Assembly: GCF_006716745.1 (NCBI RefSeq)
Contig: NZ_VFPP01000001.1
Span: 248,001-312,000 of the forward strand
Direction: 5' to 3'
Source of the DNA: Saccharothrix saharensis
GTDB taxonomy: Bacteria > Actinomycetota > Actinomycetes > Mycobacteriales > Pseudonocardiaceae
Length of the DNA stretch: 64,000 bases
The translations under genes were made by a program, and so were the position numbers. Shown here one piece after another: positions 30,272 to 51,782 of this stretch. A model generated the notes under the pieces. The model searched no databases. It saw only the letters and a program-made list of their open reading frames with translations, and was not told where the DNA came from. Every line of letters begins with the position of its first letter. Within the stretch, counting starts at the first letter, position 1.

Positions 30272-30324
30272 ATTCAGGGGTCCTGAACGTTCGACTCACG
30301 GGACCTGGGGGTTCGACTCACGCG
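30259..30324. repeat. 22-bp tandem repeat, three units, between convergent genes
   Basis: Units of exactly 22 bp at 30259-30280 (TCCTGAGCGTTGAATTCAGG+GG), 30281-30302 (TCCTGAACGTTCGACTCACG+GG) and 30303-30324 (ACCTGGGGGTTCGACTCACG+CG). The first supplies the stop codon of the MFS gene, the last that of the O-methyltransferase on the other strand. I see no second copy elsewhere in the window. Confidence 0.8.
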
Positions 30325-34300: not shown

Positions 34301-35740
34301 GTCCAGGGCGTCCTGCGGCTCGCCGTTCAGCCGGCCCGCGGCCAGGCGGTCGGCCGGCGTCGTCGTGTCCACCGCGGACAGCCGGGCGGACGGGTCGGCC
34401 ACGAGCGCGGCGAGCACGGTGAGCAGGTGGTCGGCCAGCCGCGCCACGGTGTCGGCGTCGAAGAGGTCGGTGCTGTAGTCGAGGTTGGCGGGCCAGTCGC
34501 CGTCGGTCTCGCGCACGTGCAGCGTGAGGTCGAACCGGCTCGTCCCGCGGTCGACGGGCAGCTCGGCGGCGTCCATGCCCGCCCACGACCCGGTGGCACC
34601 GCCCCGGTTCAGCACCAGCATCACCTGGAACACCGGGTGGTGGGCGAGGTCGCGGCGGGGCGCGACCCGGGCGGCGACCTCGTCGAAGCTCACCTCGGCG
34701 TGGTCCAGCGCGTCGATCGCGGTGCCCCGCGCCCGGCCGAGCAGGTCGGCCACGGTCGGGTCACCGGACAGGTCGAGCCGCAGCGCGGTCGTGGTGACGA
34801 ACATGCCGACCGAGCGCTCCAGCTCGGGGAACGGCCGGTGCGTGGTCGGCGAGCCGATCACCAGGTCGTCCGCGCCCGACCGGCGCGAGAGCAGCACGCC
34901 GAACGCGGCCAGCAGACCGGCGAACGTCGTGCACCCGTGCGCACGGGTCACCTCGGCGAGCTTCCCGGTCAGTGCGGCGGGCACGGTGAACCGGTGGCTG
35001 CCGCCCGCGGTGGTGCGGTGGGGGGTGCGGGGCCGGTCCGAGGCCAGGTCCAGCACGTCCGGCGCGCCGGCCAGCCGGTCGTGCCAGTGGTCGAGCTGCC
35101 GCTGCCGCTCGCCGTCGGCGAGCCGGTCGGCCTGCCAGTGCACGTAGTCGGGGAACTGCGCTCCGACGGGCTCCGGCGTCGAGCCCGCGTAGACGTCACC
35201 GACCTCGCCCGCCACCACGCCGAGCGACAGGTCGTCGCACACGATGTGGTGCGCGCTGAACACGACCGCCGTGTCACCGGGACCGACCCGCACCACCCGC
35301 ACGCGCAACAACGGCGCCACGGCCAGGTCGAACGGCGTGTCCACTTCGGACACCAGGAACGCGTCGAGCTCGGCCTGGCCCGACACCGACGAGAACACCA
35401 CGTCGGCGGGCACGTCGTCGACCACCTGCTGCTCGGGCACGCCGTCGACGTCCACGATCCGCGTGCGCAACGCCTCGTGCCGCCCCATCACGGTCCGCAC
35501 GGCCGCGCGCAGCCGGTCCTCGTCGACCTCGCCCGCGACCCGCAGCGCGGCGAACATGACGTACGCGCCCGCGTCGAGGCCGAGCCGCCCGGTCAGCCAC
35601 AGGCCGCGCTGGTTGCCCGACAGCGGCACGACCGCGCCCTCGGGCCGACGCGGCACGGCTTGGCGCGGCGCGGCGGCCAGGCCGCGTTCGGCCAGCAGCT
35701 TGGCCAGGAGTCGTTCGCGGTGGTCGGAGAGCTCGGTCAT
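31328..35740 (-). CDS. NRPS, module C-A-PCP with terminal thioester reductase
   Basis: 1470 residues. Condensation domain about 35-440 with HHIVCDDLS (about 164; the Gly of HHxxxDG is Asp). Adenylation domain about 480-970: VVYTSGSTGVPKG (A3), LSFDASVGDVF (A4), [12 protein letters not shown] (A5), [28 protein letters not shown]; the A10 motif is TRHGKVD. By alignment to the PheA pocket I read D-A-G-D-M-G-H-V-C, which I cannot match to a known substrate. Carrier Ser in FFGLGGHSLIAA (about 1031). Reductase domain about 1105-1470: VLLTGATGFLGAHLLAEL (NADPH) and GYHTTKW (Tyr/Lys). It would release the chain as an aldehyde or alcohol. ATG 35740 overlaps the MFS stop. Confidence 0.92.
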   Translation of the reverse strand: MTELSDHRERLLAKLLAERGLAAAPRQAVPRRPEGAVVPLSGNQRGLWLTGRLGLDAGAYVMFAALRVAGEVDEDRLRAAVRTVMGRHEALRTRIVDVDGVPEQQVVDDVPADVVFSSVSGQAELDAFLVSEVDTPFDLAVAPLLRVRVVRVGPGDTAVVFSAHHIVCDDLSLGVVAGEVGDVYAGSTPEPVGAQFPDYVHWQADRLADGERQRQLDHWHDRLAGAPDVLDLASDRPRTPHRTTAGGSHRFTVPAALTGKLAEVTRAHGCTTFAGLLAAFGVLLSRRSGADDLVIGSPTTHRPFPELERSVGMFVTTTALRLDLSGDPTVADLLGRARGTAIDALDHAEVSFDEVAARVAPRRDLAHHPVFQVMLVLNRGGATGSWAGMDAAELPVDRGTSRFDLTLHVRETDGDWPANLDYSTDLFDADTVARLADHLLTVLAALVADPSARLSAVDTTTPADRLAAGRLNGEPQDALDPALSLRHPGVLDRIAEQVAAHPGTTAVLDLADGREVTFAQLDRRANRVAHVLAGWGVGPETPVGLAVKAGPEALVALLAVLKAGGAYVPLDPAHPPARLAGLLADCGAPVVITTPADRDRFGGFHGVLLDTGDDAFTGEADAPPAADVPEDGLAYVVYTSGSTGVPKGVQVQHDTLANLTGAFIDLHGFGPGRRILMVPPLSFDASVGDVFPAWCAGAAVVVHPEPASIGGADLLKLCADHAITAVDSPAALFKRWVADLAGLAVDPGPLTVMMIGGEAVPTAAVAEWAASTGGRVAVVNHYGPTETTVCATAYRTVDASEVDPRAVTLPIGRPLPGVRAYVLDAHLRTTPVGVPGQLHIGGLAPARGYRDDPERTASVYLADPTVLGGRMYATGDLVRLLPDGTLEFLGRVDDQVKLRGHRIEPGEVRSALVAHPAVAEAAVAVRGDVLVAYVVPRAQAPELDELRAFCAGRLPDAMLPGAVVVLDELPLTRHGKVDVAALPDPDPTARLTPYEPPRTPVERTLAEVWSEVLDVPLVGRRDSFFGLGGHSLIAAAVLARVRSLLGVTVPLRALFATADLAELAGVVEQAAASDHTFAKRYKSGLPSVPEMRADAVPPEDVQPRHPVRTGPAERVLLTGATGFLGAHLLAELLSRTDAEVHCLVRAETPAVALARVRANLRRARLDVPEERFARVVPVVGDMSQPLLGLAEKDFDALAEGMDAIYHNGAVMNFVLTYQWMMPPHVGSTVDVLRLATRYSTKPLHLMSTLGVFLGANYDKRLVTETDRPEDPTGLDTGYHTTKWVADMMGVLARDRGVPVSIHRIAAIVGDVRTGTAKTESYLSRQIATCAHAGAVPRTPDVIDMLPVDRLAGAIAGISTQPSTLGRDFHYYRADGFSYADLGEVLTAKGYPTRLLEYADWRSLMLESPDSAFGPLAFGLTTTHRAHPVFDCSATWAAAASCGVEFPPADAEMIARHVDFLAAAGVLPERG

Positions 35741-37053
35741 CCCCGGGTCCTTTCAGGTGACGGCGTCTCGTCGGGCACCGCGTCGGGCAGGTCGTCCACG
35801 GTCCGCAGGCGCGGCCGCGACCAGGCGTAGGCCGCCAGCGCGAGCATCAGCGCGCCGACGACGAGGAAGATCAGGGCGATGCCGCGGCCCTCACCGGTGC
35901 CGATCAGCGCGCCGACGCCACCGGCCAGCGGGCCGTCGGCGGCCATCAGGGGCTCGGCCACCCGGTCGGTCAGCGGACCGATCAGGAGGAACGCGACCGG
36001 CATCGCGGCGGTGCTCAGCATCCGCACCACGGCCAGCACCCGGCCCAGCACGGCCGGGTCGACCTTGGTCTGCAGCAACGTCACGCAACACGTGTTGATC
36101 AACGGCAGGGTGAACAGGAACGCGGGTGCGGCCACGCCGATCAGCCACGGCGACGGCGCGAGCGAGTGCAGCACCAGGAACACCCCGCCCAGGGCCAACC
36201 CCAGGTAGATGCCGTGCACCCGGCGTCGCGGCCCGCCCCACACGCCCATCACCAGGCCGCCGACGAACAGCCCGCTGCCGCCCGCCGCCATGAGCACGCC
36301 CAGCGTGGCCGGGCTGGAGAACGACAGGATCAGCGGCTGCACCAGCCCGCCCGCGATGGCGAACAGGAAGTTCCAGACCCCGAACACCGCGCACAGCGCG
36401 AACAACCCGGGCGCGCCGCGCAGCCAGCGCAACCCGGCGCCGATGCCCTCGCGCCCGGCGTCCGAGGCACCCGCGGGCCGCACGGCGTCGTCGGGCAGCC
36501 GGGCCAGCAGCAGCGCGCCGACCGCGAACACCATCGACACGAGGTCGACCAGCAGCACGCCCCGCAGCCCCACCCAGGCCAGCAACGCCCCCGCCACCAG
36601 CGGCGCGGCGATCTGGACGCCCTGCGTGACCTGCATCAGCCCGTTGATCCGGCCCAGGTGCTCCTTGGGCACCAGCGCGGGCACCAGGGCCGTGTAGGCG
36701 ATGATGTGGAACGAGTTCAGCGTCGCGGTCAGCGCGGTGGCGACGTAGACCTGCCACACCGCCAGCGAGTCCGTCGACACGGCCACCAGCAGCAGCGCCG
36801 TGACCACGCCCGCGCCGGAGTCCGCGAGGAGCATGATCCGCCGGCGGTCGTAGCGGTCGGCCACCGCGCCCGCGTACGGCGCGAGCAGGATGCCCGGCAC
36901 CACCGCGCAGAACTGGATCAGCACGAACGTCGTCACCGACCCCGTGCCCAGGTACACCCACACGCCCAGCACGAACGCGGTCAGCGCGGAGCCGATCACC
37001 GACACCAGCTGACCGGCCCACACCACGGCGAACCGGCGCAAACCCGCGCTCAT
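35737..37053 (-). CDS. MFS exporter of the NRPS operon
   Basis: A 438-residue 12-helix MFS protein: [40 protein letters not shown] (motif A), [40 protein letters not shown]. It belongs to the group often placed inside NRPS/PKS operons for product export. Both ends overlap NRPS genes by 4 nt (ATGA), so it is made together with the assembly line; export and self-resistance for the product is the likely job. The C-terminal 35 residues are cytoplasmic and Asp/Pro-rich. Confidence 0.88.
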
Positions 37054-40000
37054 CGCTCACCACCGAGCATGGACTCGACCTCCTCGGCCGACATCCCGGC
37101 CAGCTCCAGGCGCAGCTCGGCCACGGCGGCCACCCGCGCCGGGTCGTCCAGGGCGGAGAGCGCGGCGGCGACCCCGGCGACGGTCGGCGCGGCGAACAGC
37201 CGGCCGATCGGCACCGACACCCCGAACGCGGCCCGCACCCTGGCCAGCGCCTTCGCCGCGAGCAGCGAGTGGCCGCCGAGCGCGAAGAAGTCGTCGTGCA
37301 CGCCGACCTCCGGCACGCCCAGCACCTCCGCCCAGATGCCCGCCAGCACCTCTTCCACCGCGTCCCGCGGCGGCACCCGGTCGCCTCCGACGTCCCACAC
37401 CGGCGGCGGCAGCGCCTTGCGGTCGGTCTTGCCGTTGGGCGTCAACGGGAACGCGTCCAGCACCACCGCCGCGGCGGGCAGCATGTAGTCCGGCAACCGT
37501 TCCGCGAGTCGTGCCCGCACGCGGGTCCACAGCCCGTCCCGCGGCACGTCCTCGGGCACCACGTACGCGACCAGCCGTTCGTCGGCGGCCAGCACGACCG
37601 CCTCGCGCACCTCGCCGGAGTCCAGCAGCGCGGCCTCGACCTCGCCGAGCTCGATCCGGAACCCGCGCACCTTCACCTGGTGGTCGGCCCGGCCGAGGAA
37701 CTCCAGCGTGCCGTCGGCCCGGTACCGCACCAGGTCGCCCGTCGCGTACAGCCGCCGTCCGGGCGCCGCGGCGAACGGGTCCGGCACGAACCGGCTCGCG
37801 GTCAGCCCCGGCCGGCCGCGGTAGCCGCGGGCCACGCCCGCGCCACCGATGTGCAGCTCGCCGACCACGCCCGGCGGCACCGGCTCCAGCCCCGGGCCCA
37901 GCACGTACAGCCGGGTGTTGCCGATCGGCGGCCCGAGCACCACCGGTGCCGGGGAGGGCTCGACCAGGCCGGCGGACGACCAGACCGTGGTCTCGGTGGG
38001 ACCGTAGGCGTTCCACAGCACCGCGTCGTCGGTCAGCAGGTCGTCGGCCAGGTCGCGGGGCAGCGCCTCGCCGCCGCAGATCCGGGTCGCGACCCCGGCG
38101 GGCACGCCGCCCGCCGCGTGCAGCAGCCGCCACGTCGCCGGGGTCGCCTGGAGCGCGGTCACGCGGCGTTCGACCAGCAGGTCCCGCAGCGCGCCACCGT
38201 CGGCGCTCACCTCCGACGGCACCACCAGCACCTCCGCGCCCGCGGTCAGCGGCAGCAGCAGTTCCAGCACGGAGATGTCGAACGACAGCGTGGTCACGGC
38301 GGCCAGCCGGTCGGTGTCGCCGAGCGCGAGCAGCCGCTGGAACGACACCAGCAGGTTCACCACGGCCCGGTGCGGCACCTCCACGCCCTTGGGCGTGCCC
38401 GTCGAGCCGGACGTGTAGATGACGTACGCCAAGTCCTCGCCGGACGCGGGGCACGGTTGCGGGGACGGCTCGAAGCGGTCGGCGTCGGCGAGACCCAGCA
38501 CCGTGCCGCCGAACGGCAACGCCCGGTCCGTGACCAGCACGGTCGCGCCGGAGTCGGCCAGCATCGCGGTCACCCGGTCCGCGGGCCAGGTCGGGTCCAG
38601 CGGCACGTACGCCGCGCCCGCCCGCCACACGCCCAGCACGGCGGCCACCAGGTCCGGGGTGCGCGGCAGGCACAACGCCACCGCCGACCCCGAACCCGCG
38701 CCGTGCGCCCGCAGGAGCGCGGCGACCCGAGCGGCCCGGGTGTCCAGCTCCGCGTACGACAGCGCGGAGCCCACACCGGACACCGCGGTGCCGCTCCCGG
38801 CGATCAGGTCCAGCGCGGTGCGCGCGGGCGGCAGGTCCAGGTCGGTGGCGTTGAAGCCCTCCAGCACCTCCCACCGCCGCACGCCGGTCAGCCCGTCCAG
38901 CTCGCTGATCCGCCGTTCCGGGTGCTCGGCGGCGGCGAGGAGCAGCGCGATCAGCCGGTCGGTGAACTCGGCGATGGTCGGTTCGTCGAACAGGTCGGTG
39001 TTGTACTCCACGCCGAGGGCGAGCATGTCGCCCTGCGGGTCGGCGGCCACCGTCAGGTCGAACTTCGCCACCTTCGGGTCGGGCACCAGCGGCGTCACGT
39101 CCAGCCCCGCCAGGGCGATGTCCATCGGCGGGGTGTTGGTGAAGATCAACTGCGCCTGGTAGATCGGCGCGTGCCCGGTGCTGCGCCGCGGGCTCAGGTG
39201 CTCCACCAGCCGCTCGAACGGCAGGTCGGCGTGCGCGAGGCCGGCCGCGGCGACCTCCCGGGTCCGGGCCAGCAGCTCGGTGAACGTCGGGTCGCCGCCC
39301 ACCGGCGTGCGCAGCGCGAGGGTGTTGACGAAGAACCCGACCAGGCCTTCCAGGTCCGCGTGGGACCGCCCGGCGACCGGCGTGCCGACCACCACGTCGT
39401 CCTGCCCGGCCAACCGGCCGAGCCGGGCCGCGAACCCGGCCAGCAGCACCATGAACACGGTGACGCCGTGCGTGCGGGCCAGGTCCTCCAGCGGCCGCAG
39501 CGGCACGTGGCCGTACCGCAGCGCGCCCCGGTGGGTGACCACCGGCGGGCGGGGCCGGTCGGTGGGCAGGGTCAGCAGCTCCGGTGCGTCGGCGAGGTGC
39601 CGCGTCCAGTGGTCGAGGTGCCCGGCGGCCAGGTCGGCCATCCGGTCGCGCTGCCACACCGCGAAGTCCGGGTACTGCAACGACAACGCGGGCAGGTCCG
39701 GGTCACGGCCCTCCAGGGCGGCGTCGTAGGCCCGTCCCAGCTCACCGAGCAGCACCGACAGCGACCAGGCGTCGGCGACGATGTGGTGCAGGTTGAGCAC
39801 CAGCACGTGGTCGTCGTCGGTGAACCGGCCCAGGCTCGCGGTGAACAGCGGCCCCCGGTGCAGGTCGAACCCGACGCCGCCGCGGTCGTCGGCGAACCGC
39901 TGCGCCTCGCCGTCGCGGTCGCCCTCGGGCAGGTCGTGCGCGGTGAGCGTGGCGGTCCCCGTAGGCGCGACCACCTGCACCGGTTCGCCGCCCGAGTCCG

Positions 40001-40271
40001 GGAACGTGGTGCGCAGCGACGCGTGCCGGTTCACCAGGACGTCCAGCGCGCGCTGCAACGCGGCCCGGTCGAGTGGTCCGCGCAGGCGCAACGCGACGGG
40101 CACGTTGTAGACCGCGCTGCCGGGGGAGAACCTGTCCAGGAACCACAGCCGTTGCTGCCCGAACGACAGCGGGTACGCGGTGGGCGCGGCGGCACGGGCC
40201 CGCAGCCGTTGCGCCAGCAGCTCCCGCTTGCGCGCCGACGCCGCCGCGCCGGAGTCCCTCAACTCGGTCAT
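37050..40271 (-). CDS. NRPS, one C-A-PCP module
   Basis: 1073 residues. Condensation domain about 33-450: [20 protein letters not shown] (LCL-type start) and HHIVADAWS (about 163; Ala for the Gly of HHxxxDG). Adenylation domain about 475-960: [101 protein letters not shown]. Pocket residues read D-I-L-A-I-G-A-V-W; no confident substrate. Carrier Ser in [15 protein letters not shown] (about 1002). The acidic tail ends [14 protein letters not shown], a possible docking helix. No epimerase or methylation domain. Overlaps both neighbours by 4 nt. Confidence 0.93.
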
Positions 40272-40945
40272 GACGCGCTCCCGGACCTGGTCAGCCGGTC
40301 GGCCGCCGCGCGCACGTGCTCACGCAGGTGCGTCGGCACGCGGTCGCCGAAGCGCTGGAGGTAGGCGGCCACGGTGGTGTCGTCGTCCCGCAGGAACGGG
40401 AAGTCGGTGGGCACCATGTGCCGGATCGCCAGCAGCGGCACGGGGCTGTGCAGCGGGCGGAAGCCCGGGTTCCACAGGCCGGCCTTCTGCGGCGGACCGG
40501 GGTGGAACTCGCCCAGCATCAGCCCGTCGCGGGTGTACTGCGGCTTGAGCAGCTCCTGGGCCCGGTCGACCACGCCGAACTCGGTCAGGTCCGGGAACAG
40601 GATCACGATGGTCTTGAACTGCGCGCCCGGACCCCGCTTCGGCTCCAGCTCGGCGAACCAGTCGCGGTAGTGCAGCAGCAGCGCGGCGAGCTCGTCCGGC
40701 TCCTCGGGCGTGCCGGCGTGCACGGACAGGTAGAACAGCCCCCGTTGCAGGGACGTGTCGGTGAACGGGCACACCGCGCCCCGGCGACCCAGGTCGGGGT
40801 GCGGTCCGCACAGGTACTCACCGGCCCACGCGAACACGGTCCGCAGCGGCGGTTCGTGCGCCGCGACCGCGTCGGGCAGCCGAGGCGCGGCGAAGTCCGC
40901 CGGCTCGACCAGGGGGTGGGCCCGGTGGGTCGGATGGATCAGCAT
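40268..40945 (-). CDS. Conserved NRPS-cluster protein of unknown function (CPF motif)
   Basis: A 225-residue soluble protein. Conserved-looking pieces are [20 protein letters not shown] directly followed by [20 protein letters not shown] (two Cys), then [15 protein letters not shown] and a C-terminal [19 protein letters not shown] believe it belongs to the uncharacterised DUF6875 family, but that recall is not firm. Cys-His spacing could bind haem or metal. Start: ATG 40945 overlaps the TGA of the flavin hydroxylase by one base (TGATG) with GGTGGAG ahead. Its stop overlaps the next NRPS start by 4 nt. Its fixed place next to the hydroxylase suggests a partner or tailoring role. Confidence 0.7.
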
Positions 40946-42282
40946 CAACTCCACCTGCCTTTGTTCCGGGACCGGCGGGCCAGGCCCGCCAGCGCCGCAC
41001 CGGCCACCGCGGCCGTGACGCCGCCCAGCACGCGGTCCTGCCGCCGTGCCCGGGTCAACGCCTCGCCGTAGGGGACCGTGGTGTGCGAGATCAGGGTGTA
41101 GAGCGGCACCCACGTGTTGGGGAACAGCCGGTGCAGCGCCAGGTCGACCTTCCTGCGGGCGGTGAACAGCGGCGAGCGCACCTTGTCGCGCAGCTCCACG
41201 AAGTTCCGCTTGGACAGGTCCGCCAGCACGTCGGTGTGCGGCCGGCGGGTGGTCTCGAACCGCGCCAACGCGGCCGGCAGGTCGTCCGGGTGCGCGGCCA
41301 GGCACCGGTCCAGCACCGAGCAGTCCTCGAACGCGGCGTTCATGCCCTGCCCGAAGAACGGGTACACGGCGTGCGCCGCGTCGCCGACGAGCACGATGCC
41401 CCGGCCCTCGTCCGCGGTGACGTGCCACGGCGCGGTGCGCACGGTGACCAGGCTCGCGGGCGGGTGCGCCAGGAACTGCTCCACCAGGTCGGGGATCAGG
41501 GTGAGCGTGTCCGGGAACCGGCGGTCGAAGAACGACCGCACCCGCTCGGCCCCGGTCAGCCCCGCGAACCCGTGCGGGCCGTCGAACGGCAGGAACACGG
41601 TCGCGGTGAGCGAGCCGTCCACGTTCGGGTGCGCCACGATCAGGCCCTCGTCGCCCGGCCACACGTGCAGCGCCCGCAGCTCGGTGCGCGGCCGGCCGTC
41701 GTCGCCGACGCCGATCAGCAGCTCCTTGTAGCCCCACTCCAGGAACTCCTGGTGCAGGTCCATCCGCCGACCGCGGCCCAGGTGGGTGCGCACGGCGGAG
41801 AACGCGCCGTCCGCGCCGACGACCAGGTCCGCCGTGTGCGCGGTCCCGTCGTCGGTGGTGACGGCGGGCTCGGCCCGGTCGACGGCGGTCACCCGGCGGC
41901 CCCAGGAGAACCCGACGCCGAGCCGGTCGGCCTCGTCCACCAGCGCCACGTTCAGGTCGTGCCGCAGCACGGAGTGCAGGATCTGGTCCTCGGCCACGCC
42001 GTAGGGCTGGAACCGCAGCGTGCCGTCCGGCAGGTGCACGACCCGGCCGCGCATCGGCACGGTCAGCGGCGCGAGCCGCTCCAGCAGGCCGATCTCGCGC
42101 AATGCCACGATGCCCCGCTGGGACAGGCCGAGGTTGATCGACCTGCCCTCCTCGCGCGCGCCCGGCGCCCGCGGGTCGCCCCGCCGTTCGAGCACCCGCA
42201 CGTGGAACCCCCGGCGGGCCAGGTAGACGGCGGTGAGCGAGCCGGCCAGCCCCGCGCCGACGACCAGCGCTTCCCGGGTCAT
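40945..42282 (-). CDS. Kynurenine 3-monooxygenase-like FAD hydroxylase
   Basis: A 445-residue class A flavin hydroxylase. FAD motif ALVVGAGLAGSLTAVYLARR (5-24); kynurenine-monooxygenase signature EEGRSINLGLSQRGIVALRE (about 45-64), PMRGRVVHLPDG, VLRHDLNVALVDEAD, DLVVGADGAFSAVR, and IVLVGDAAHAVYPFFGQGMN then AAFEDCSVLDRCL. A C-terminal hydrophobic helix (GGVTAAVAGAALAGLA) mirrors the membrane anchor of true enzymes. Relatives hydroxylate kynurenine ortho to the amine with NADPH and O2. No tryptophan dioxygenase or kynureninase gene is in the window, so the substrate may be kynurenine supplied by metabolism or a carrier-bound aromatic residue. 4-nt overlap with the upstream NRPS. Confidence 0.88.
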   Translation of the reverse strand: MTREALVVGAGLAGSLTAVYLARRGFHVRVLERRGDPRAPGAREEGRSINLGLSQRGIVALREIGLLERLAPLTVPMRGRVVHLPDGTLRFQPYGVAEDQILHSVLRHDLNVALVDEADRLGVGFSWGRRVTAVDRAEPAVTTDDGTAHTADLVVGADGAFSAVRTHLGRGRRMDLHQEFLEWGYKELLIGVGDDGRPRTELRALHVWPGDEGLIVAHPNVDGSLTATVFLPFDGPHGFAGLTGAERVRSFFDRRFPDTLTLIPDLVEQFLAHPPASLVTVRTAPWHVTADEGRGIVLVGDAAHAVYPFFGQGMNAAFEDCSVLDRCLAAHPDDLPAALARFETTRRPHTDVLADLSKRNFVELRDKVRSPLFTARRKVDLALHRLFPNTWVPLYTLISHTTVPYGEALTRARRQDRVLGGVTAAVAGAALAGLARRSRNKGRWS

Positions 42283-45200
42283 GCCTCGTCCTCGTCGACC
42301 AGGGCGCCGAGCAGGCGGTCGATCTCCTCGTCGGACAGCTCGTCGAGCTGGTCCAGCAACGGCACCGGTCCCCGCGCGGCCGCGCCCGTGCCGCGACCGA
42401 GGTTCGCGGACAGCTCGGCGATGGTGGGCGCGGCGAACAGCGTCGCCAGCGGCAGGTCGACGTCCAGCGCGACCCGGACCCGGGCCAGCATCTGGGTCGC
42501 GGTCAGCGAGTGGCCGCCCAGGGCGAAGAAGTTGTCGTGCACGCCCAGCGGCGCGTCCGCGGGCATGCTCAGCACCTCGCGCCAGATCTGCGCCAGCCGC
42601 CGCTCGTCGTCGTCCCGCGGCTCGACCAGCTCGACGTCGTCGGTCGTCCACACGGGATCGGGCAGCGCCTCGCGGTCGATCTTGCCGGTGCCGGTGCGCG
42701 GCAGCGCGGGCAGCACGACGACCGCCGCCGGGAGCATGTAGTCGGGCAGGCTCGCGGCCAGGTGCGGGCGCACCCGGCGGCGCAGCTCGTCGTCGCCCAG
42801 GCCGGCGTCGGCGGGCACCGCGTACGCGACCAGCCGCACGTCGGCGGCGTGCGCCGACCAGGCGACCACGACGGCCTGCGCCACGTCCGGGTGGGCGCGC
42901 AGCACGGCTTCGACCTCACCCGGCTCGATCCGGTAGCCGCGCACCTTGAGCTGCCGGTCGGCGCGGCCCAGGAACTCCAGCCTGCCGTCGGCGTGCCGGC
43001 GGACCAGGTCACCCGAGGCGTAGAGGCGCCCGCCGGGCGGCCCGAACGGGTCCGGCCGGAACCGCTCGGCGGTCAGGCCGGGCTGCCCGTGGTAGCCGCG
43101 GGCCACGCCCGCGCCGCCGATGTGCAGTTCGCCGATCACCCCCGGCGGCACCGGGCGCATCACCGGGTCGAGCACGTGCAGCGACGTGCCCTTGACCGCG
43201 GGGCCGAGCCGGACGGGGTCCGGCGCGGGCGACACGACCCCCGCCGCCGAGTAGACCGTGGTCTCGGTCGGCCCGTAGCCGTCGACGAGGGTCGCGCCGT
43301 CGGTCTGGAGGTCGTCGGCCAGGTCGCGGGTCATCGCCTCGCCGCCGCTGATCCGCAGCCGCACGCGCGCGGGCACGCCTCCGGCCGCGACGACCATCCG
43401 CCAGCTCGCCGGACCGCCCTGCACGACCGTCGCCCCGGTCTCCTCGACGCGGGCCCGCAGCAGCGCGCCGTCGGCCACGTCGTCCGCCGGGACGACCACG
43501 AGCGTGGCGCCGCTGACCAGCGGGGCCAGCATCTCCACCGTGGACACGTCGAACGCGGGCGTGGTGATGGACGCGAGCCGGTCGTCCGGCGTCAGCTCCA
43601 TCAGCTCGCCCATCGCGCGCAGCAACGCGGCCAGCCCGCCCTGGGTGCACCGCACGCCCTTCGGCCTGCCGGTGGACCCGGACGTGTGGATGACGTAGGC
43701 GAGCATGCCGGGGTGCCGCGGGGTGGCCGGCGGTGGCGTGTCCGGGTGCGCGTCGAGGTCGGCGGTGTCCAGGTCCACCTCGGTCCACGGCCCGGTCAAC
43801 GGTCCGGTGACCGCGCGCGACGCGCCGTCCGTGACGAGCACCGGCACGTCGGACCCCTCGGCCATGGCGGTGAGCCGGGCCGGTGGCCACGACGGGTCCA
43901 GCGGCAGGTAGCCCGCGCCCGCCCGCCACGCGGCCAGGATGCCGACCACCATCGGCGCGCCCCGGTCCAGGCACAGCGCCACCGGCTGGTCCGGCCGCGC
44001 GCCGGCGGCCAGCAGCACGTGCGCCAGGCGGTTCGCCGCCCGGTCCAGCTCGCCGCACGTCAGCGCGCCCTCGACCGCGACCGCGTCCGGGTGCTCGGCC
44101 AACCCGGCGAACACCAGGTCGGCGGCGGTTTCGGCGGGCACCTCGACGGCGTCCTCCTGCGGCGCGTGGTCCCCGAGCCACAGCTCGGCGACCCGGTCGG
44201 CGGGGGAGGCGTGCACGGCGGCGGCGAACACCGCGTGCAGCGCGGCGACCGTCTCCGGCGTGAACAGCTCCGAGTCGTACTGCCACCGGGCGAACCACCG
44301 CTCACCGGCCCGTTCGACGGTCAGCGACAGGTCGAACTTCGCCCCGCCGTTGGCGACGGGCTCGGGCCGGAGCGTGACCGGACCGGCGGCCCGCGCGGGC
44401 GGCACCGGCTCGACCGCGAACAGCACCTGCACCAGCGGCGCGTGCGCGAGCGTCCGCTGCGGCGCGACCAGGTCCACCACCTGCTCGAACGGCAGGTCCT
44501 GGTGGGCGAGCGCGGCCACGGTCGCCTCCTCGGCCGCCGCGACCACCTCGCCGAACGTCGTCCCCGGCTCGAACGTCGCCCGCAGCGGCAGCGTGTTGGC
44601 CACGAAGCCGACCAGGCCCTCGGTCTCCGGCCGGGTGCGGGCCGCGACCGGCGTGGCCACCAGGAAGTCCGCCTGCCCGGTCACCCGGTGCAGCACGCAC
44701 TGGAAGACCGCCAGCAGCCGCGCGAACGAGCCGTCCGGCACGTCCAGCCCGGCCCGCAGCTCCGCGCCGCGCCCGGTCGGCGTCACCGGTCGCGTCCGGT
44801 CGGTCGGCAGCGACAGCACGGTCGGCACGCCGTGCAGCGCCTCGCGCCAGTACTCCGCGTCGGCGGCGAACGCGCCACCCTCGACCTGCTCCCGCTGCCA
44901 CACCGCGTAGTCCGGGTACTGCACCGGCAGGTCCGGCAGCCCGTGCGGCTCACCGGCGACCTCGGCCTCGTACAGCCGGGCCAGCTCGTCGAACAGCACC
45001 GCGCACGACCAGCCGTCCGCGATGGTGTGGTGCAGCACCAGGACCAGCACGTGCCGCTCGGGCCCGGCCTCGACCAGGCCGGCGCGCAGCAGCGGCCCGC
45101 CGTGCAGCTCGAACGGGCGGCCGACCTCCTCGCGCACCACCGCGTCCACGTCGCCGGACAGCCGCGCCAGCGGCACGGTCAACGCCGCCGACACCACCTG

Positions 45201-45434
45201 CACCGGCACGCCGTCCTCGGCCGCGAACCGCGTCCGCAGCGCCTCGTGCCGCGCGACCAGCGCGTTCAGCGCCACCCGCAACGCCTCGGCGTCCAGCGGG
45301 CCGTCGACACCGATCCGCCAGCCGATGTTGTAGACCGGGCTCGCGGGCAGCAGCTGGTCGACCAACCACAACCTGCGCTGCCCGGACGAGGCCGGGAACC
45401 GGAACACCTCGTCCTGACTCGTCACCGCGCTCAC
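42279..45434 (-). CDS. NRPS, one C-A-PCP module
   Basis: 1051 residues. Condensation domain about 10-420: FPASSGQRRLWLVDQLLPAS and canonical HHTIADGWS (about 135). Adenylation domain about 445-940: [104 protein letters not shown]. Pocket residues read D-V-V-G-I-G-G-V-Y; not matched. Carrier Ser in [15 protein letters not shown] (about 976). The acidic tail DELSDEEIDRLLGALVDEDE may be a docking helix. GTG 45434 overlaps the stop of the fusion gene (GTGA), with GGAGGG ahead. Confidence 0.93.
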   Translation of the reverse strand: MSAVTSQDEVFRFPASSGQRRLWLVDQLLPASPVYNIGWRIGVDGPLDAEALRVALNALVARHEALRTRFAAEDGVPVQVVSAALTVPLARLSGDVDAVVREEVGRPFELHGGPLLRAGLVEAGPERHVLVLVLHHTIADGWSCAVLFDELARLYEAEVAGEPHGLPDLPVQYPDYAVWQREQVEGGAFAADAEYWREALHGVPTVLSLPTDRTRPVTPTGRGAELRAGLDVPDGSFARLLAVFQCVLHRVTGQADFLVATPVAARTRPETEGLVGFVANTLPLRATFEPGTTFGEVVAAAEEATVAALAHQDLPFEQVVDLVAPQRTLAHAPLVQVLFAVEPVPPARAAGPVTLRPEPVANGGAKFDLSLTVERAGERWFARWQYDSELFTPETVAALHAVFAAAVHASPADRVAELWLGDHAPQEDAVEVPAETAADLVFAGLAEHPDAVAVEGALTCGELDRAANRLAHVLLAAGARPDQPVALCLDRGAPMVVGILAAWRAGAGYLPLDPSWPPARLTAMAEGSDVPVLVTDGASRAVTGPLTGPWTEVDLDTADLDAHPDTPPPATPRHPGMLAYVIHTSGSTGRPKGVRCTQGGLAALLRAMGELMELTPDDRLASITTPAFDVSTVEMLAPLVSGATLVVVPADDVADGALLRARVEETGATVVQGGPASWRMVVAAGGVPARVRLRISGGEAMTRDLADDLQTDGATLVDGYGPTETTVYSAAGVVSPAPDPVRLGPAVKGTSLHVLDPVMRPVPPGVIGELHIGGAGVARGYHGQPGLTAERFRPDPFGPPGGRLYASGDLVRRHADGRLEFLGRADRQLKVRGYRIEPGEVEAVLRAHPDVAQAVVVAWSAHAADVRLVAYAVPADAGLGDDELRRRVRPHLAASLPDYMLPAAVVVLPALPRTGTGKIDREALPDPVWTTDDVELVEPRDDDERRLAQIWREVLSMPADAPLGVHDNFFALGGHSLTATQMLARVRVALDVDLPLATLFAAPTIAELSANLGRGTGAAARGPVPLLDQLDELSDEEIDRLLGALVDEDEA

Positions 45435-48400
45435 CGCGGTCCCTCCCCCCTCAGACCGACACGCTCCGGCCAACCCCTCCGGTCGACCGCCACCACCCGG
45501 AACTCCGCCGTGTGCCGAGCGCCCGCGGCGTCGGTCAACCACAGCCGGTCCGGACCGGGCAGCATCTCGCCCACGCCCATCGGGGCGTCCGGCTTCCCGC
45601 GGTCCAGGGCCCGCACCGCGTGCGCGAACAGCTCGACCGACGGCTGGCTCTCCAGGTCCACGTAGAACGGTTTGTGCTCCACCGGGCTCTTCACGAACAC
45701 GAACCTCGGCATGCCGTGCTCGCGTCGCCACGCCTGCGCCCGCAGGAAGCGGGTCGCCTCGTCCGGGGCGAACGCGAACGCCGACCTCGCGGCGGGTAAT
45801 CGCCAGCCCTCCCGGGCGACCACCAGCCGGTCCAGGCTGACCCGCGGCGTGTGCTCGCCCGCGGGCAGCAGCCGGAAGTGCTGCACCAACTGCGCCATGA
45901 CCTGCTCGTTCAGCAGCTCGACCAGGTCGACGTCCACCCGGCCGTCCCGGCTGCGGGCCACCAGCCGCCCGCCGCTCTCGGTCACCTCGCACGCGCCGAC
46001 CGGCACCGCGTCGCGCAACCCCGGCCCGCACGCGTCGTGCCCGGACACGATCTTCAGGTCGTCCGGCGAGACGAGCGCGTCGGCGAGCCGCTGCGGCGTG
46101 CCGCCCTCCTCGCGCGTGGTGGCCAGCACGATCCGCGGCCCGGCCATGTCGTGCCGCATCGCGGCCCGCAACTGGGCCGGGTCCGGGTGCTGGGACACGA
46201 ACAACGCCGACCGCATGGTGTTCACGCCGGGGTGCACCTCACCCAGCACCCACCGGTAGTCGCCCGCCCGGATGGCGTCCTCGTCCCGTGCCGCGATGAG
46301 GACGTCCGGGCTGTGCTGGACCGCGCCGCGCCAGCCGGGCCGGGGCACGGCGAACGCCTTGAGCACGGCGTCGCGCACGTCGTCCACCCGGTAGTGGGCC
46401 TCGCGGCCGTCCGGGGCGTGCCCGAGCGCCTTGGCCCAGCGGTCCTGCAGGGTCCGGACGAGCCTGCCGATGAGCCGCTCGTCGAGGCGGAAGATCGTGT
46501 CGTTGGCCCACAGCCAGAAGTCGGCCAGGCGGACCCGGTCCGAGCCGGTCGCCGCCACCCGCTCCCGGTACACCTCGCGCAACGCCCGCCCGTACAGGGC
46601 CGAGCCCGCGGAGGTGAACCACCGTGCGGCTTCCAGGACGAGGGACAGCGGCGTCCACAGCGTTTCCGCCAACGCGGGGGAGAGGGTGACGTCCAGGTCG
46701 CGCCGGCACTCCTCGTGCACCAGCGTGCGGCCGGCGTAGAACAGGCCGGGTCGGCGCACGGCCGCCGTGCCGGTGATGGCGGTGAACTTCTCGTGCAGCT
46801 CGCCGATCGCGCCCACCAGCCGGTCCGGGTCGCCCACGGCGGCGGCGACCGCGTCCCGTCCCCGCTCGATCTCGTGCAGCGCCCGTTCGGCCCCGGCGCG
46901 GGCTTCGGGGTCGCCGATGGCCGAGATCTGCTCGCGCAGCGCCGTTTCCGGCACCAACGCCTCCGGCGGCACCTCCAGGGTCCACGCGATCCGCTTGGCC
47001 TGCCGCAGCCGTTCGAGGGTGGCCAGCACGTCGTCCACGGACCGGTCGAGGTCCCGCGCGATCTCGGCGGCGCGGCGCAGGCCGTCGCAGGCGGCGAGCA
47101 CGGCCGCGTCCGGTGCGGGCAGCCGCACCGGGTCGGTCATCGGCACGTGCAGGGTGTCGCCCACGACGTCGAGGAACGGCATCCGCCGGGGCACCGCCCA
47201 CGGCCGCACGGCGTCGGTGGTCAACGCTTCGGCCAGTTGCTGGACGGCCCAGTTCTCCAGGTAGGTGGTGCGCCTGTCGACCAGGTCCGGCCCCGGTCGC
47301 GCGGTGATGGCGGCGGGGGCGTCGTCGGTGATCCGGGCCCAGCCGACCGGGCCGAAGAAGCCGATGGTGTCGTTCTTCGCGCAGTACCGCTGCAGGTAGC
47401 TGACGACCGTGTGCTCCCACCGGCGGTAGTCGACGTTGCGGGAGGCGGGCCGGTCGCCGGACAGCGCCTGGTGCAGCGCGTCCACGGCGGTCTGGAGGGC
47501 GCGCGGGTTCTGCCACGCCACGGCTTCGCGGAACTTGGCGTCGCCGCTGACGACCCGCAGCACCTCGGCGGCGGCCTGCCGCCCGGCCTCGAACCGGGTC
47601 CCGTACTCCGCGACCGCGGCCTCGTACCGTGCCGCGGCCTCGGCCGCCGCCGCCAGCGCCGCGTCGACCTCCGCGTCGGACGCCGCTCCCGCGCCGACGA
47701 CCAGCAGCGCGGCCGGTCCGGTGTCGGGTCCGGTCCTCGCCGGCGGCACGGCTTCCGCCGCCGGGTCGGGCGGGAGCCCGGTGGTCACCGCGGCGTCGGC
47801 CACCAGCGTGGTCGGAGCTGCCGGGTCGGGGTCCACCACCGGCGCTGCCGGTTCCACCGCGGCGGCCTCCGCACCCGGCGGCACGGAGCCCGGGTCGGGG
47901 ATCGGCAGCGCGACCGTCACCGGGTCGGTCGGCGGCACCGCGGCCAGCGCCGACCGCGCCTCGGCGAACCGCCCCTTGCGCACCAGCCGCCCGATCCGCC
48001 GCAACACCGACCGCCGCTCACCGCGCGCCGCGTCCTCCACCTCCCGCAGCACCCGGAAGGCCGCCCACCGCGCCTCGGCCACCGCGTCCTCGGCCGCGAG
48101 CACCGCCTCCGCCGCCCGCGCGGCCTCCGGGCTCGCCACGGCCAGCAGCGGCTCGACGCCGAAGCCCGTCGCGCGCAGCTCGACCCACCGCCACGCCGCC
48201 CAGTGACCGTCACGCGGCAGCACCAGGTGATCGGCGACGGGCCGGGCCGACGTGCGCTGCGCGGGCACCAGGTACGCCGACCGGTCCCGGCGCGTGATCG
48301 GGGCACGGCTCGGCGGCGTCCCGGCCTTCGCGTCCGATCCCGCCGCGTCCAGCACCGCGGCGTCCAGCACCGCCGCGCACGCCGCCAGCGTCCGCGCCCG

Positions 48401-51400
48401 GTGCAGGTCGGCGACCGGCACCTCGACCCCGAACTCCTCGCGCACCCGGAACGCCAGCCGCACGGCGAGCAGCGAGTTGCCTCCCACCGCGAAGAAGTCG
48501 TCCTCCGCGAACACCTCCGGTGTGCCCAGCAGGTGCTGCCACAACGCCGCCAGCCGCCGCTGCGCGGCGGTCGACGGCAGGGTCCGGTCCGTGCCCCGCG
48601 CGCCCGGGGCACGGACCGACCGCAGCGCCGCCCGGTCCACCTTGCCGCTGCGGTTCAGCGGCAGCTCCGGCAGCGGCACGTACCGCGCCGGGCAGAGGTA
48701 GGCGGGCAGCCGTTCCGCGACGTGCGCGCGCACGTCGTCGATCTCCCACGAGGCGGTCGGCACGACGTAGGCCACCAGGTGCCGGGCGTCGTCCTCGCCG
48801 AACGGCAGCACGGCCGCCGCGGTGACCGCCGGGTGCGCCCGCAGCACGGCCTCGACCTCGGCGGGCTCCACCAGGAACCCGCGCACCTTCACCTGCCGGT
48901 CCGCGCGACCCAGGAACTCCAGCACGCCGTCCGGTCGCCACCGGGCCAGGTCGCCCGTCCGGTACAGCCGCCCACCCGGCACGTCGCCGAACGGGTCCGG
49001 CACGAACTTCGACGCCGTCATGCCCGGCGCCCCCACGTATCCCCGCGCCAGCCCGTCACCGCCGGTGTAGAGCTCGCCGGGCACGCCCACGGCCACCGGC
49101 CGCATCGCCTCGTCCAGCACGTACACCGACGTCCGCTGGATCGGCGTCCCGATCGGCACGGTCGCGCCCACGTCGGCGGCCGACCGCACGACGTGGCACG
49201 TGGTGAAAGTCGTGTTCTCCGTCGGCCCGTACCCGTTGACCACGGGTTTCCCGCCGCGCGCCGCCAACGCCGCGCGCACCGCGTCCGGCGCGAGCACGTC
49301 ACCGCCGGCCAGCAGCTGGTCCACGTCGGCCAGGACCGCCGGGTCGAGCTGGTGGAACAGCCCGGCGGTCAGCCACAGCACGCTCACCCGGTGCACGCGC
49401 AGCAGCTCGGCCAGGACGGCCGGGTCGAGCGGACCGGGCGGCGCGGCCACCACGCGCCCGCCGGTCAGCAGCGCGCCCCACACCTCCAGCGTGGTGAGGT
49501 CGAACGCGGTCGCGGACAGGTGCAGGAACGTCTGCCCCGGCTCGAACCGGCCGAACGAGGGACGCGTGACCAGCCGGACCACACCCCGGTGCGGCACCGC
49601 CACGCCTTTGGGCGTGCCGGTCGACCCGGACGTGTAATTGACATAGGCCACGCTTGATGGATGCGCCCGGACCGCGGGGGATACCGGCGACTGCTCCGAA
49701 AGGTCCAACCCCGGCAGCACGACGGACACCACACCGTCCGGCACGGCACGCGGCCGTTCGGACACCACCAGGGGTGTGCCGGACTCGCGCAACACGACCG
49801 CCTCACGTGCCGGCGGGTTCGCCGGGTCCAGCGGCAGGTAGGCCGCGCCGGTCTTCAGCACGGCGAGCACCGCGGTCACGAAGTCCGCGCCGCGCGGCAG
49901 TGCCAGCGCCACCGGCCGGTCCACCCGCGCGCCGCGTGCCGCCAGCACGTGCGCCAACCGGTTCGACCGCTCGTCCAGCTCGCGGTAGGACAGCCACCGC
50001 ACGCCGTCGAACACCGCGTCCGCGTCCGGCCGCAGCCGCACCTGCTCGGCGAACAGCTCCGGCACGGTCGCGTCCGCCGGGAAGTCGACGGCGGTGTCGT
50101 TCCACGCCCGCAGCACCCGCGCGCGGTCCCGCGGCCCGCCCAGTTCCCGCACCGGCCGGTCCGGCGCCTCCGCCATGCCCGCCAGCACGTCGCGGACCTG
50201 GGCCAGCAGCGCGTCCGGCGCCCAGGCCGGGAACCGGCCGGTGTCGTGGATGAGCCGGAAGCTCAGGTGCGGCTCGGCGAACGCGTACAGCGTCAGCGCG
50301 TAGCCGGGGGTGCGCAGGATGCGGACCCGCCTGCCGGGCGGGGCGGACGGCCGGGCGGCCAGCACCGTGCCCAGCTCGCGGTGCTCGAACAGCACCAGGC
50401 TGCGCATCAGCGGCACGTCGTGCCCGGACGCCCGCTGGATGACCGGCAACGGGCACAACTGGTGGTCGCGCGCCCGCACGGACCGCTCGCGCACCGAGCG
50501 CAGCCAGTCGACCACCGCCGCGTCCCGGTCCACCGGCACGCGCAGCGGCACGGTCGCCAGCAGCAGGCCGAGCATGTCCTGCGCGCCCTCGACGGTGCCG
50601 TGCCGCGCCGCCCTGGTCACCCCGAACACGGCTTCGTCGGCGTGCGCGTGCGTGGTCGACAGCAAGCCCCACGCGGCCAGCACCACCGTGTTCACCGTGA
50701 CGCCCGCCTGAGCGGCCAACGCCCGCACCGCCTCGGTCTCGGCCGCGGACAGGTCGAGCGCGGCCGTGGCCATGACGGGCGTGTCCGGCCCGGCGTGCTC
50801 CAGCGGCAGGGGACCGGGTTCGGCCGAGCCCGCCAGTTCCGCCGCCCAGAACCGTTCGTCGGCCCGCAGTTCCGGGTGGTCGGGCGCGACCCGTGCGCCG
50901 TGCCACCGGGCGTAGTCGGCGAAGTCCGGCCGGGGTGGGAACTCCAGCGCGCCGCCCGTGCGCCGGGCCGCGTAGTCGTCGTCGACCTCGGCCAGCAGCA
51001 TCGCCAGCGACCGGCCGTCGAGGATCGCGTGGTGGAACGTCGCCACCACCACGTCACCGGGCAGGGCGACGACCCGCAGCGGCGGCCCGGCCACCGGGTC
51101 CACCCCGGCCCGCCGGTCGGCCGCCAGGAACGCGTCCAGGTCCGCGACCGAGTCGTCCACCAGCACCGGGACGTCCTCGGCCGGTCCCGGCCACTGCTCC
51201 ATCCCGCCGTCGGCGCGCCAGGCGAAGCGGGTCCGCAGCACGGGGTGCCGCGCGACCGCCGCCCGCCACGCCGCCAGGTACGCGGCGGTGTCCAGGCCGT
51301 GCGGCCAGTGCTGCACGCACTGGATGACGTCCGTCCCGGCCGACGGGTCGCGCAAGCCGGCCGCGATCATTCCGCTCTGCAACGGCAGAGCCGGCGCGAG

Positions 51401-51424
51401 CCGCGGCGCAGAATCCGTGTGCAC
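45431..51424 (-). CDS. NRPS-LanB fusion: C-A-PCP followed by lantibiotic dehydratase-like region
   Basis: 1997 residues. Condensation about 10-420, with PALPLQSGMIAAGLRDPS (PLQ-GM start, as in DCL/dual types) and HHAILDGRS (about 130). Adenylation about 450-940: [18 protein letters not shown] (about 595), TAFDLTTLEVW, LAGGDVLAP, NGYGPTENTTFTTC, RADRQVKVRGFLVEPAEVE; pocket D-L-L-L-L-G-G-T-F suggests an aliphatic residue. Carrier Ser in FFAVGGNSLLAVRLA (about 984). From about 1040: HWAAWRWVELRATGFGVEPL, a Pro/Ala linker, then the LanB N-domain signature SYLQRYCAKNDTIGFFGPVG (about 1345) and RFVFVKSPVEHKPFYVDLES near the end. The separate elimination domain of class I dehydratases is not seen, as in aminoacyl-tRNA-using PEARL-type proteins. 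GTG 51424 follows GGGGAGG. Confidence 0.88.
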   Translation of the reverse strand: MHTDSAPRLAPALPLQSGMIAAGLRDPSAGTDVIQCVQHWPHGLDTAAYLAAWRAAVARHPVLRTRFAWRADGGMEQWPGPAEDVPVLVDDSVADLDAFLAADRRAGVDPVAGPPLRVVALPGDVVVATFHHAILDGRSLAMLLAEVDDDYAARRTGGALEFPPRPDFADYARWHGARVAPDHPELRADERFWAAELAGSAEPGPLPLEHAGPDTPVMATAALDLSAAETEAVRALAAQAGVTVNTVVLAAWGLLSTTHAHADEAVFGVTRAARHGTVEGAQDMLGLLLATVPLRVPVDRDAAVVDWLRSVRERSVRARDHQLCPLPVIQRASGHDVPLMRSLVLFEHRELGTVLAARPSAPPGRRVRILRTPGYALTLYAFAEPHLSFRLIHDTGRFPAWAPDALLAQVRDVLAGMAEAPDRPVRELGGPRDRARVLRAWNDTAVDFPADATVPELFAEQVRLRPDADAVFDGVRWLSYRELDERSNRLAHVLAARGARVDRPVALALPRGADFVTAVLAVLKTGAAYLPLDPANPPAREAVVLRESGTPLVVSERPRAVPDGVVSVVLPGLDLSEQSPVSPAVRAHPSSVAYVNYTSGSTGTPKGVAVPHRGVVRLVTRPSFGRFEPGQTFLHLSATAFDLTTLEVWGALLTGGRVVAAPPGPLDPAVLAELLRVHRVSVLWLTAGLFHQLDPAVLADVDQLLAGGDVLAPDAVRAALAARGGKPVVNGYGPTENTTFTTCHVVRSAADVGATVPIGTPIQRTSVYVLDEAMRPVAVGVPGELYTGGDGLARGYVGAPGMTASKFVPDPFGDVPGGRLYRTGDLARWRPDGVLEFLGRADRQVKVRGFLVEPAEVEAVLRAHPAVTAAAVLPFGEDDARHLVAYVVPTASWEIDDVRAHVAERLPAYLCPARYVPLPELPLNRSGKVDRAALRSVRAPGARGTDRTLPSTAAQRRLAALWQHLLGTPEVFAEDDFFAVGGNSLLAVRLAFRVREEFGVEVPVADLHRARTLAACAAVLDAAVLDAAGSDAKAGTPPSRAPITRRDRSAYLVPAQRTSARPVADHLVLPRDGHWAAWRWVELRATGFGVEPLLAVASPEAARAAEAVLAAEDAVAEARWAAFRVLREVEDAARGERRSVLRRIGRLVRKGRFAEARSALAAVPPTDPVTVALPIPDPGSVPPGAEAAAVEPAAPVVDPDPAAPTTLVADAAVTTGLPPDPAAEAVPPARTGPDTGPAALLVVGAGAASDAEVDAALAAAAEAAARYEAAVAEYGTRFEAGRQAAAEVLRVVSGDAKFREAVAWQNPRALQTAVDALHQALSGDRPASRNVDYRRWEHTVVSYLQRYCAKNDTIGFFGPVGWARITDDAPAAITARPGPDLVDRRTTYLENWAVQQLAEALTTDAVRPWAVPRRMPFLDVVGDTLHVPMTDPVRLPAPDAAVLAACDGLRRAAEIARDLDRSVDDVLATLERLRQAKRIAWTLEVPPEALVPETALREQISAIGDPEARAGAERALHEIERGRDAVAAAVGDPDRLVGAIGELHEKFTAITGTAAVRRPGLFYAGRTLVHEECRRDLDVTLSPALAETLWTPLSLVLEAARWFTSAGSALYGRALREVYRERVAATGSDRVRLADFWLWANDTIFRLDERLIGRLVRTLQDRWAKALGHAPDGREAHYRVDDVRDAVLKAFAVPRPGWRGAVQHSPDVLIAARDEDAIRAGDYRWVLGEVHPGVNTMRSALFVSQHPDPAQLRAAMRHDMAGPRIVLATTREEGGTPQRLADALVSPDDLKIVSGHDACGPGLRDAVPVGACEVTESGGRLVARSRDGRVDVDLVELLNEQVMAQLVQHFRLLPAGEHTPRVSLDRLVVAREGWRLPAARSAFAFAPDEATRFLRAQAWRREHGMPRFVFVKSPVEHKPFYVDLESQPSVELFAHAVRALDRGKPDAPMGVGEMLPGPDRLWLTDAAGARHTAEFRVVAVDRRGWPERVGLRGEGPR

Positions 51425-51566: not shown

Positions 51567-51782
51567 TCAGCCGCGGTGGGCGGCGAGGTGCTCGCGGACG
51601 CTGCGAGGCCGCATGTCCGTCCACGTCCGTTCGATGTGGGCCAGGCAGTCTTCCCTGGTGCCACGCGTTCCCTCGGCCCGCCATCCCGGCGGGAGGTCCC
51701 GGTCGGCGAACCAGACCGAGTACTGCTCCTCGTCGTTCAGCACGACCAGGAATTCGTGGTGATCGGTGTTCTCGTCAGTCAT
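51567..51782 (-). CDS. mbtH: MbtH-like protein
   Basis: A 71-residue MbtH-like chaperone of adenylation domains: LVVLNDEEQYSVWFADRDLP, PPGWRAEGTRGTREDCLAHI, ERTWTDMRPRSVREHL, with the conserved Asn, Ser-Val-Trp, Gly-Trp and Trp-Thr-Asp-Met-Arg-Pro. It binds and activates the A domains of its cluster. ATG 51782 has CAGGAGAG ahead. First gene of the operon; 142 nt separate it from the fusion gene. Its upstream region must carry the operon promoter. Confidence 0.95.
   Translation of the reverse strand: MTDENTDHHEFLVVLNDEEQYSVWFADRDLPPGWRAEGTRGTREDCLAHIERTWTDMRPRSVREHLAAHRG

Follow-up and report, generated by a model that had tools for sequence, protein, structure and literature searches.

A 64,000-nucleotide window of the Saccharothrix saharensis genome (contig NZ_VFPP01000001.1, positions 248,001 to 312,000) carries a gene in which a nonribosomal peptide synthetase (NRPS) module of condensation, adenylation and thiolation domains (C-A-T) is fused to a region resembling lantibiotic dehydratases (LanB). 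The LanB part looks like an ATP- and aminoacyl-tRNA-dependent amide ligase of the peptide aminoacyl-tRNA ligase (PEARL) type and not like a dehydratase. Judging from its residues, PEARL-type catalysis as such is likely, and more so than the tether to the module; the reading preferred here, by a narrow measure, is that a ligase of the SnaE kind works in cis and adds a tRNA-borne residue to the carboxylate of an intermediate bound to the carrier domain (T1) of its own module.

By the accounts available, PEARLs were before 2024 enzymes of ribosomal scaffold peptides, joined since 2024 by one free-standing case that acts on a urea-linked nonribosomal peptide. The latter, SnaE, extends a nonribosomal peptide in the threopeptin biosynthesis of Stackebrandtia nassauensis, and thiolation-domain fusions are mentioned by its discoverers in the text available (PMC11212132). 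The relevant papers on LanB-NRPS fusions found in the open (non-subscription) literature, as far as their available text goes, were PMC11212132 and the preprint PMC10769383. The initial annotation had known of no characterised enzyme of this architecture; a precedent in trans does exist in SnaE, and the C-A-T-PEARL module itself is new relative to these sources, as are its single origin, its conservation and its link to a distinct C-domain clade. Also new is that the pathway is without the urea-forming C domain that supplies the carboxylate for SnaE, so that the carboxylate for this ligase must come from elsewhere.

In Saccharothrix the ligase follows one NRPS carrier domain in the same polypeptide and is conserved in most species of the genus, and two routes of peptide-bond making are probably wired together in one chain. 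The fusion fixes stoichiometry and proximity and therefore offers a direct test of whether PEARLs act on carrier-bound substrates. It lies in a natural-product locus with likely indole-oxidising enzymes and reductive release, for which no assigned product was found.

Structure of the fusion gene

The fusion gene occupies 45431..51424 of the window (1,997 codons). The uninterrupted frame initially described at these coordinates was confirmed exactly, with a GTG start, a TGA stop and no inner stops; it lies on the minus strand, and the plus strand contains stops there. Mechanical extension of the frame reaches a GTG at 51664 (2,077 aa). The GTG at 51424 is most likely the true start, given the ribosome-binding site GGGGAGG at 51435-51429, the separate MbtH-like gene at 51567-51782 and the third-position GC content, which drops at ~51.3-51.4 kb.

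A Pfam scan of the fusion returned, in order and each above its cut-off, Condensation, AMP-binding, AMP-binding_C, PP-binding and Lant_dehydr_N, bearing out the NRPS motifs and LanB region first noted in one chain. All domains are on the minus strand: the condensation domain (C1) at 50135..51394, with the motif FHHAILDG at 51014-51037; the adenylation domain (A1) with its C-terminal subdomain at 48641..50053, for which the nearest solved structure is linear gramicidin synthase A; and T1 at 48371..48556, with the phosphopantetheine serine at residue 984 (48473-48475), as first noted. The LanB/PEARL-like part of 924 aa, defined by Pfam, residue matching and predicted structure, follows at 45434..48205, with HWAAWRWVELR from residue 1074 and SYLQRYCAKNDTIGFFGPVG from residue 1342 as landmarks. 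The best 25 of 97 NCBIfam families listed for the fusion were all NRPS or acyl-ligase models, so that NCBIfam was uninformative on the LanB part, and no NCBIfam family matched the free LanB of locus L079.

The glutamylation domain that marks class I LanB proteins, PF04738 (Lant_dehydr_N), is present. The elimination domain PF14028 (Lant_dehydr_C), which had been described as not visible, was not reported for the fusion at E up to 0.001. Elsewhere in the genome there are four PF14028 matches, all at G000:C1:1264860-1288401; the fused LanB lies at ~C1:293-295 kb in these coordinates, ~970 kb from the nearest copy. The second LanB locus at this distant place, which also has a separate PF04738 gene at 1280241, is perhaps an ordinary lanthipeptide- or thiopeptide-type cluster.

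Reality and conservation of the fusion

The fusion is more than a chance joining, as its third-position GC signature, its recurrence in the genus and its ratios of nonsynonymous to synonymous substitution (dN/dS) show. An in-frame, fusion-sized open reading frame (ORF) with a LanB match (1,889-2,142 aa) was found in 16 of 25 same-genus genomes, its own included, which rules out misassembly or a sequencing frameshift as its origin; no frameshift separating the halves, the artefact the initial annotation had considered, was seen in these. A seventeenth genome, that of Saccharothrix luteola (G010; L038/L069), has the halves split into overlapping C-A and T-LanB frames, either as a true split or through a sequencing error, and the other 8 have no such ORF. 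By a simple Nei-Gojobori estimate against ten relatives, dN/dS of the LanB core was 0.14-0.27 versus 0.20-0.32 for the C and A domains in the five closest, and 0.30-0.66 versus 0.29-0.74 in the other five.

All eight operon genes occur in the same order in 16 other Saccharothrix genomes (best tblastn pieces 69-96% identical, the fusion being scored by its LanB part), and the MbtH-like gene was present in 16/16 same-genus regions searched. In one genome (G005; L034/L052) the FAD monooxygenase and DUF6875 genes lie ~1.4 kb further apart than in the others.

A family scan of 297 genomes detected a LanB of the fusion's clade in 52 (E up to 1e-100). In-frame fusions with a full-length match were found in 16 Saccharothrix genomes and in G054, a count that leaves out three frames of >1,800 aa (two in G121, one in G151). 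Named loci were compared in a set of 76, the best of 235 relatives, many of them cut by contig ends or by the 10-kb flank; absence in VIA-align rows was not counted as evidence. Fusions with the same neighbours were also present in Actinophytocola gossypii (L082), Salinispora pacifica (L077) and Micromonospora echinofusca (L078). Micromonospora also has another type of C-A-T-LanB cluster (L081, L087, and L089 with its start cut off).

PEARL-type residues and fold of the LanB part

Residues of the fusion were matched to those of BhaBC-Trp by motif, spacing and the numbers given in the available text of PMC11962472 and PMC12945691, not by sequence alignment. On this basis R1084, Y1343, R1346, D1707, E1729 and H1731 correspond to R34, Y205, R208, D558, E575 and H577, and R1871, F1910, K1918, E1974 and R1976 to R715, F755, K763, E813 and R815. 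The columns were scored, in the numbering of the LanB part and its model, in 40 LanB-part sequences with rows from five phyla. The ATP and phosphorylation residues D634, E656, E901 and R903 were present in 40/40, as were the ligation arginine R11 and the tRNA 3'-CCA contacts Y270 and R273; position 845 was lysine in 36 and arginine in 4. The main CCA-end pair Y270/R273 is thus invariant, and the loss of all tRNA-binding residues that had been envisaged as a counter-indication was not seen. Helix 193-211 of BhaBC-Trp matches model helix 258-276 in length and place, which puts R208 at R273; R208 and its TglB equivalent are required for activity according to the available text of PMC11962472.

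The predicted structure of the LanB part has a LanB-type fold, as the structure prediction initially proposed as a check was to show, and its nearest solved structures are glutamylation domains or dehydratases. These relatives were recovered by fold comparison only, since a phmmer search of PDB sequences with the LanB part gave none. A winged-helix region at model residues 337-410 matches, in fold comparison, leader-binding domains such as TbiB1, of the kind named RiPP recognition element (RRE; RiPP, ribosomally synthesized and post-translationally modified peptide). Pfam gave no domain in the LanB part besides PF04738, and so no leucyl/phenylalanyl (L/F)-transferase domain.

Single origin and link to the first module

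In a tree of 40 LanB parts, the 11 fused rows formed one clade (100/99), with separate LanB genes of L094 and then L079 as nearest relatives; the fusion has a single origin in this tree. In a tree of 66 C domains, made by a quick method and with C1 of L078 left out as too short, C1 of seven fusions grouped with L079_12550, L094_12126 and L096_12092, apart from the other 56 C domains, among them the upstream C domain of L079; C1 of the fusion is thereby also separated from the remaining C domains of its operon. Placing the LanB-linked label on the upstream C-A-T of L079 instead required two changes, not one, in this tree. The C1 clade is distinct with respect to the sampled C domains, among which reference domains of the starter or DCL type are few or lacking.

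The C1-type gene of L079 comes immediately after the LanB gene on the same strand, and those of L094 and L096 run convergent to their LanB genes. Given these layouts and a C1 clade that includes C domains beside separate LanBs, the C1-type module and LanB probably lay side by side before fusion. In the two convergent loci, L094 (Micromonosporaceae KJ-029) and L096 (Salinispora pacifica CNR114), Pfam recognises just the first third of the A domain in the C-A-T gene, which looks divergent or interrupted.

The solved structures nearest to C1 of the fusion are the C domains of McyB and PvdL, and that nearest to the C domain of the next module is Txo1. The first C domains of PvdL and CDA are starters, and those of McyB, SrfA-C and TycB are DCL domains.

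The operon

Third-position GC content outlines a minus-strand operon from the fusion through an O-methyltransferase gene. Upstream of the fusion, at 142 bp, lies the MbtH-like gene noted above (51567..51782, 71 aa, PF03621), which had not been mentioned in the initial annotation. Downstream follow, all on the minus strand, a C-A-T module (42279..45434) whose GTG start overlaps the fusion stop by 4 bases; a FAD monooxygenase (40945..42282, PF01494; best NCBIfam match VioC, below its cut-off); a DUF6875 protein identified by profile match (40268..40945); a second C-A-T module recognised by Pfam and third-position GC (37050..40271); a major facilitator superfamily transporter, a probable exporter by profile match and the same GC signal (35737..37053); a terminal module with a reductase domain (R), C-A-T-R (31328..35740; thioester reductase TIGR01746); and the O-methyltransferase (30318..31325; PF00891 with a dimerisation domain). 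Five junctions have 4-base start/stop overlaps, the FAD monooxygenase and DUF6875 genes overlap by 1 base, and 2 bases separate the reductase gene from the start of the methyltransferase gene.

By analogy with peptide-aldehyde pathways, the reductase points to an aldehyde or imine as the product. DUF6875 proteins are described as heme proteins able to oxidise tryptophan, and the member ZigI, which has a partner methyltransferase, as carrying the heme motif of tryptophan C-7 hydroxylases (PMC13307353, available text); from these descriptions a hydroxylated or methoxylated indole in the product is a fair guess. Neither an upstream module for C1 nor, in the operon, a polyketide synthase (PKS) was found. 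No precursor peptide gene was noticed in the cluster, and no search aimed at small ORFs was made.

Proposed mechanism and alternatives

The analysis shows the architecture, conservation, predicted fold, retained residues and, in the tree, the single origin of the fusion; the catalytic steps proposed here are inferred. A1 would load an amino acid on T1, and C1 would acylate it in a starter- or DCL-like manner. The LanB part, with ATP, would then phosphorylate a free carboxylate of the T1-held intermediate, either of the acyl cap or of a side chain, and join it to the amine of an aminoacyl-tRNA, from which the tRNA would be hydrolysed. Because the tRNA-borne residue is added at a carboxylate, the molecule would be lengthened at the end opposite the NRPS thioester, while modules 2-4 would extend the other end and the R domain would release an aldehyde or derived product. 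The VioC-like flavoenzyme, the DUF6875 protein and the O-methyltransferase would probably decorate an indole. The initial proposal that aminoacyl-tRNA-type chemistry enters an NRPS line is supported by the retained residues and the SnaE precedent, and the LanB lineage is tied to the module; action on a carrier-held group in cis, also proposed at first, is putative.

Several points weigh against a SnaE-like ligase in cis. The operon genes include no acyl-CoA ligase to feed a starter C domain. None of the four operon C domains has the urea signature EHHxxHDG (0/4), so the ligase lacks the carboxylate source that SnaE has, and nothing was identified in its place; a threopeptin-like chain reversal through a urea-forming C domain was rejected as unsupported on the same count. 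Motif-based pocket letters gave no confident substrate for A1 and were not used. Of the further BhaBC-Trp CCA contacts Q201, R197 and R429, the two that were mapped are not kept: Q201 falls on position 266 (L 26, T 7, V 3, M 3, F 1; n=40) and R197 on position 262 (Q 25, R 9; n=40). Classical LanBs also have an acidic residue at 634 (8/8), Glu at 901 (6/8) and both Y270 and R273 (8/8), so these four positions alone cannot separate PEARLs from LanBs. The residue matching relies on published numbers, motifs and spacing, without aligned BhaBC-Trp, TglB or SnaE, and action in cis is read from sequence and model only. The genes upstream of the L079, L081 and L087 clusters and their other neighbours did not include an acyl-supplying enzyme either.

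The best surviving alternative, although improbable, is a PEARL-type ligase whose substrate is the released peptide or an intermediate carried by a later module, the fusion serving co-expression or proximity. The ATP and CCA-end residues back the chemistry and not the tether, and PMC11212132, in its available text, leaves a carrier-bound or free substrate for SnaE undecided. Against it, the LanB part follows the module's own T domain in the fused genes seen, and the two were probably neighbours before fusion.

It is decidedly unlikely that the PEARL fold and ATP site are used with the T1 aminoacyl group or a free amine as donor, in the way of a carrier-coupled, ATP-grasp-like amide ligase. Against it stand the invariant CCA-contact pair Y270/R273 and the requirement for R208 of BhaBC-Trp and its TglB equivalent. 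Moreover, both A domains of SnaA load arginine (PMC11212132, available text), so that the threonine added by SnaE comes without an A domain there.

Slightly more doubtful is tRNA-primed initiation, in which the PEARL-type domain would couple an acyl acid to an aminoacyl-tRNA and, without hydrolysing the resulting acyl-aminoacyl-tRNA ester, pass it in cis to the T1 thiol or to C1, for which the tRNA-borne acyl-aminoacyl group would be the donor, and one chain residue would come from the translation apparatus and not from an A domain. It would explain a module-1 C domain for which no upstream module was found, as well as the C1 clade and LanB gene as neighbours before fusion.

A true LanB reaction, with Glu-tRNA glutamylating a Ser/Thr side chain on T1 for later elimination, is very unlikely. 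PF04738, the shared Y270 and R273 and the closest solved structures favour it, as does the Arg and Phe that TbtB has at the adenine like BhaBC-Trp (PMC11962472, available text), a likeness qualified by the R798 and F837 columns, which score 0/8 in eight classical LanBs. It is opposed by the lack of PF14028 within ~970 kb, by GExH, K845 and the final R of ExR, kept in the fusion and missing from 8/8 classical LanBs, and by the report that TbtB does not use ATP (PMC11962472, available text). Glutamyl activation, one of the initially suggested functions, is accordingly disfavoured by PEARL-type ATP residues and an absent elimination domain, and glutamylation followed by elimination was ruled out as the main interpretation.

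That the LanB part is a relic or a docking element without catalysis is barely credible. In its favour, a variable Ala/Pro-rich insert (model residues 97-171) has a predicted local distance difference test (pLDDT) score of <50 and dN/dS up to ~1 where comparable. Against it, the LanB core has dN/dS about as low as C and A, and rows of five phyla show little or no variation in the catalytic columns.

Comparison with known systems

The likeness to SnaE was judged by its published description, and the SnaE sequence itself was left out of the comparison. As described in the available text of PMC11212132, both systems have a LanB-like protein without an elimination domain in an NRPS cluster, an MbtH-like partner and an electrophile-type C-terminal ending (an enone in the SnaE pathway, reductase release in Saccharothrix). 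SnaE is, however, free-standing and acts after a urea-forming C domain in an NRPS-PKS system, whereas the Saccharothrix ligase is fused as C-A-T-LanB. With the RiPP-type PEARLs BhaBC-Trp/BhaB7, TglB and AmmB2 the fusion shares a LanB-type fold without elimination domain and, by position and spacing, the ATP, ligation and main CCA-end residues; those enzymes extend the C-terminus of a ribosomal scaffold peptide, whereas the partner here is an NRPS carrier. NisB, MibB, TbtB and GodF share PF04738, the overall fold and the winged-helix region, and differ in that the fusion is without an elimination domain and has PEARL-type ATP residues and an NRPS context. Livipeptin-type clusters also combine a tRNA-dependent enzyme and an NRPS-like protein in one chain (potential fusions) with reductase release, but there an L/F transferase, of an unrelated family, replaces the C domain of a C-minus NRPS (PMC10548850, available text). 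In the Saccharothrix module the C domain is retained and the addition is LanB-like.

Related loci

Among the 76 loci, 46 of which showed any C-domain motif, the urea-type signature occurred in one, L107 of Parvularcula (EHHAIHDG). It adjoins a LanB of the fusion's clade, and a SnaE-like system outside Actinomycetota is possible there.

A recurring cluster combines a free A and a free T frame with two flanking LanB genes of the same clade. It was seen at 16 loci (L110, L111, L112, L116, L120-L123, L125, L128, L130, L134, L136, L138, L140 and L141) in Streptomyces, Actinosynnema, Saccharothrix carnea, Amycolatopsis and Crossiella, with an MbtH-like gene in 15/16. On a plasmid of Kitasatospora sp. 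NBC_00039 (L143), three annotated lantibiotic dehydratase genes and at least one LanB-like hypothetical gene are clustered, with no NRPS annotated in the stretch shown; the record has 6 tblastn places, with PEARL-type ExR residues. In the window itself, a few kb upstream of the cluster, a minus-strand gene at 55388-58591 encodes an NNH1-NACHT STAND-type protein (PF22733, PF05729), possibly a defence or signalling ATPase.
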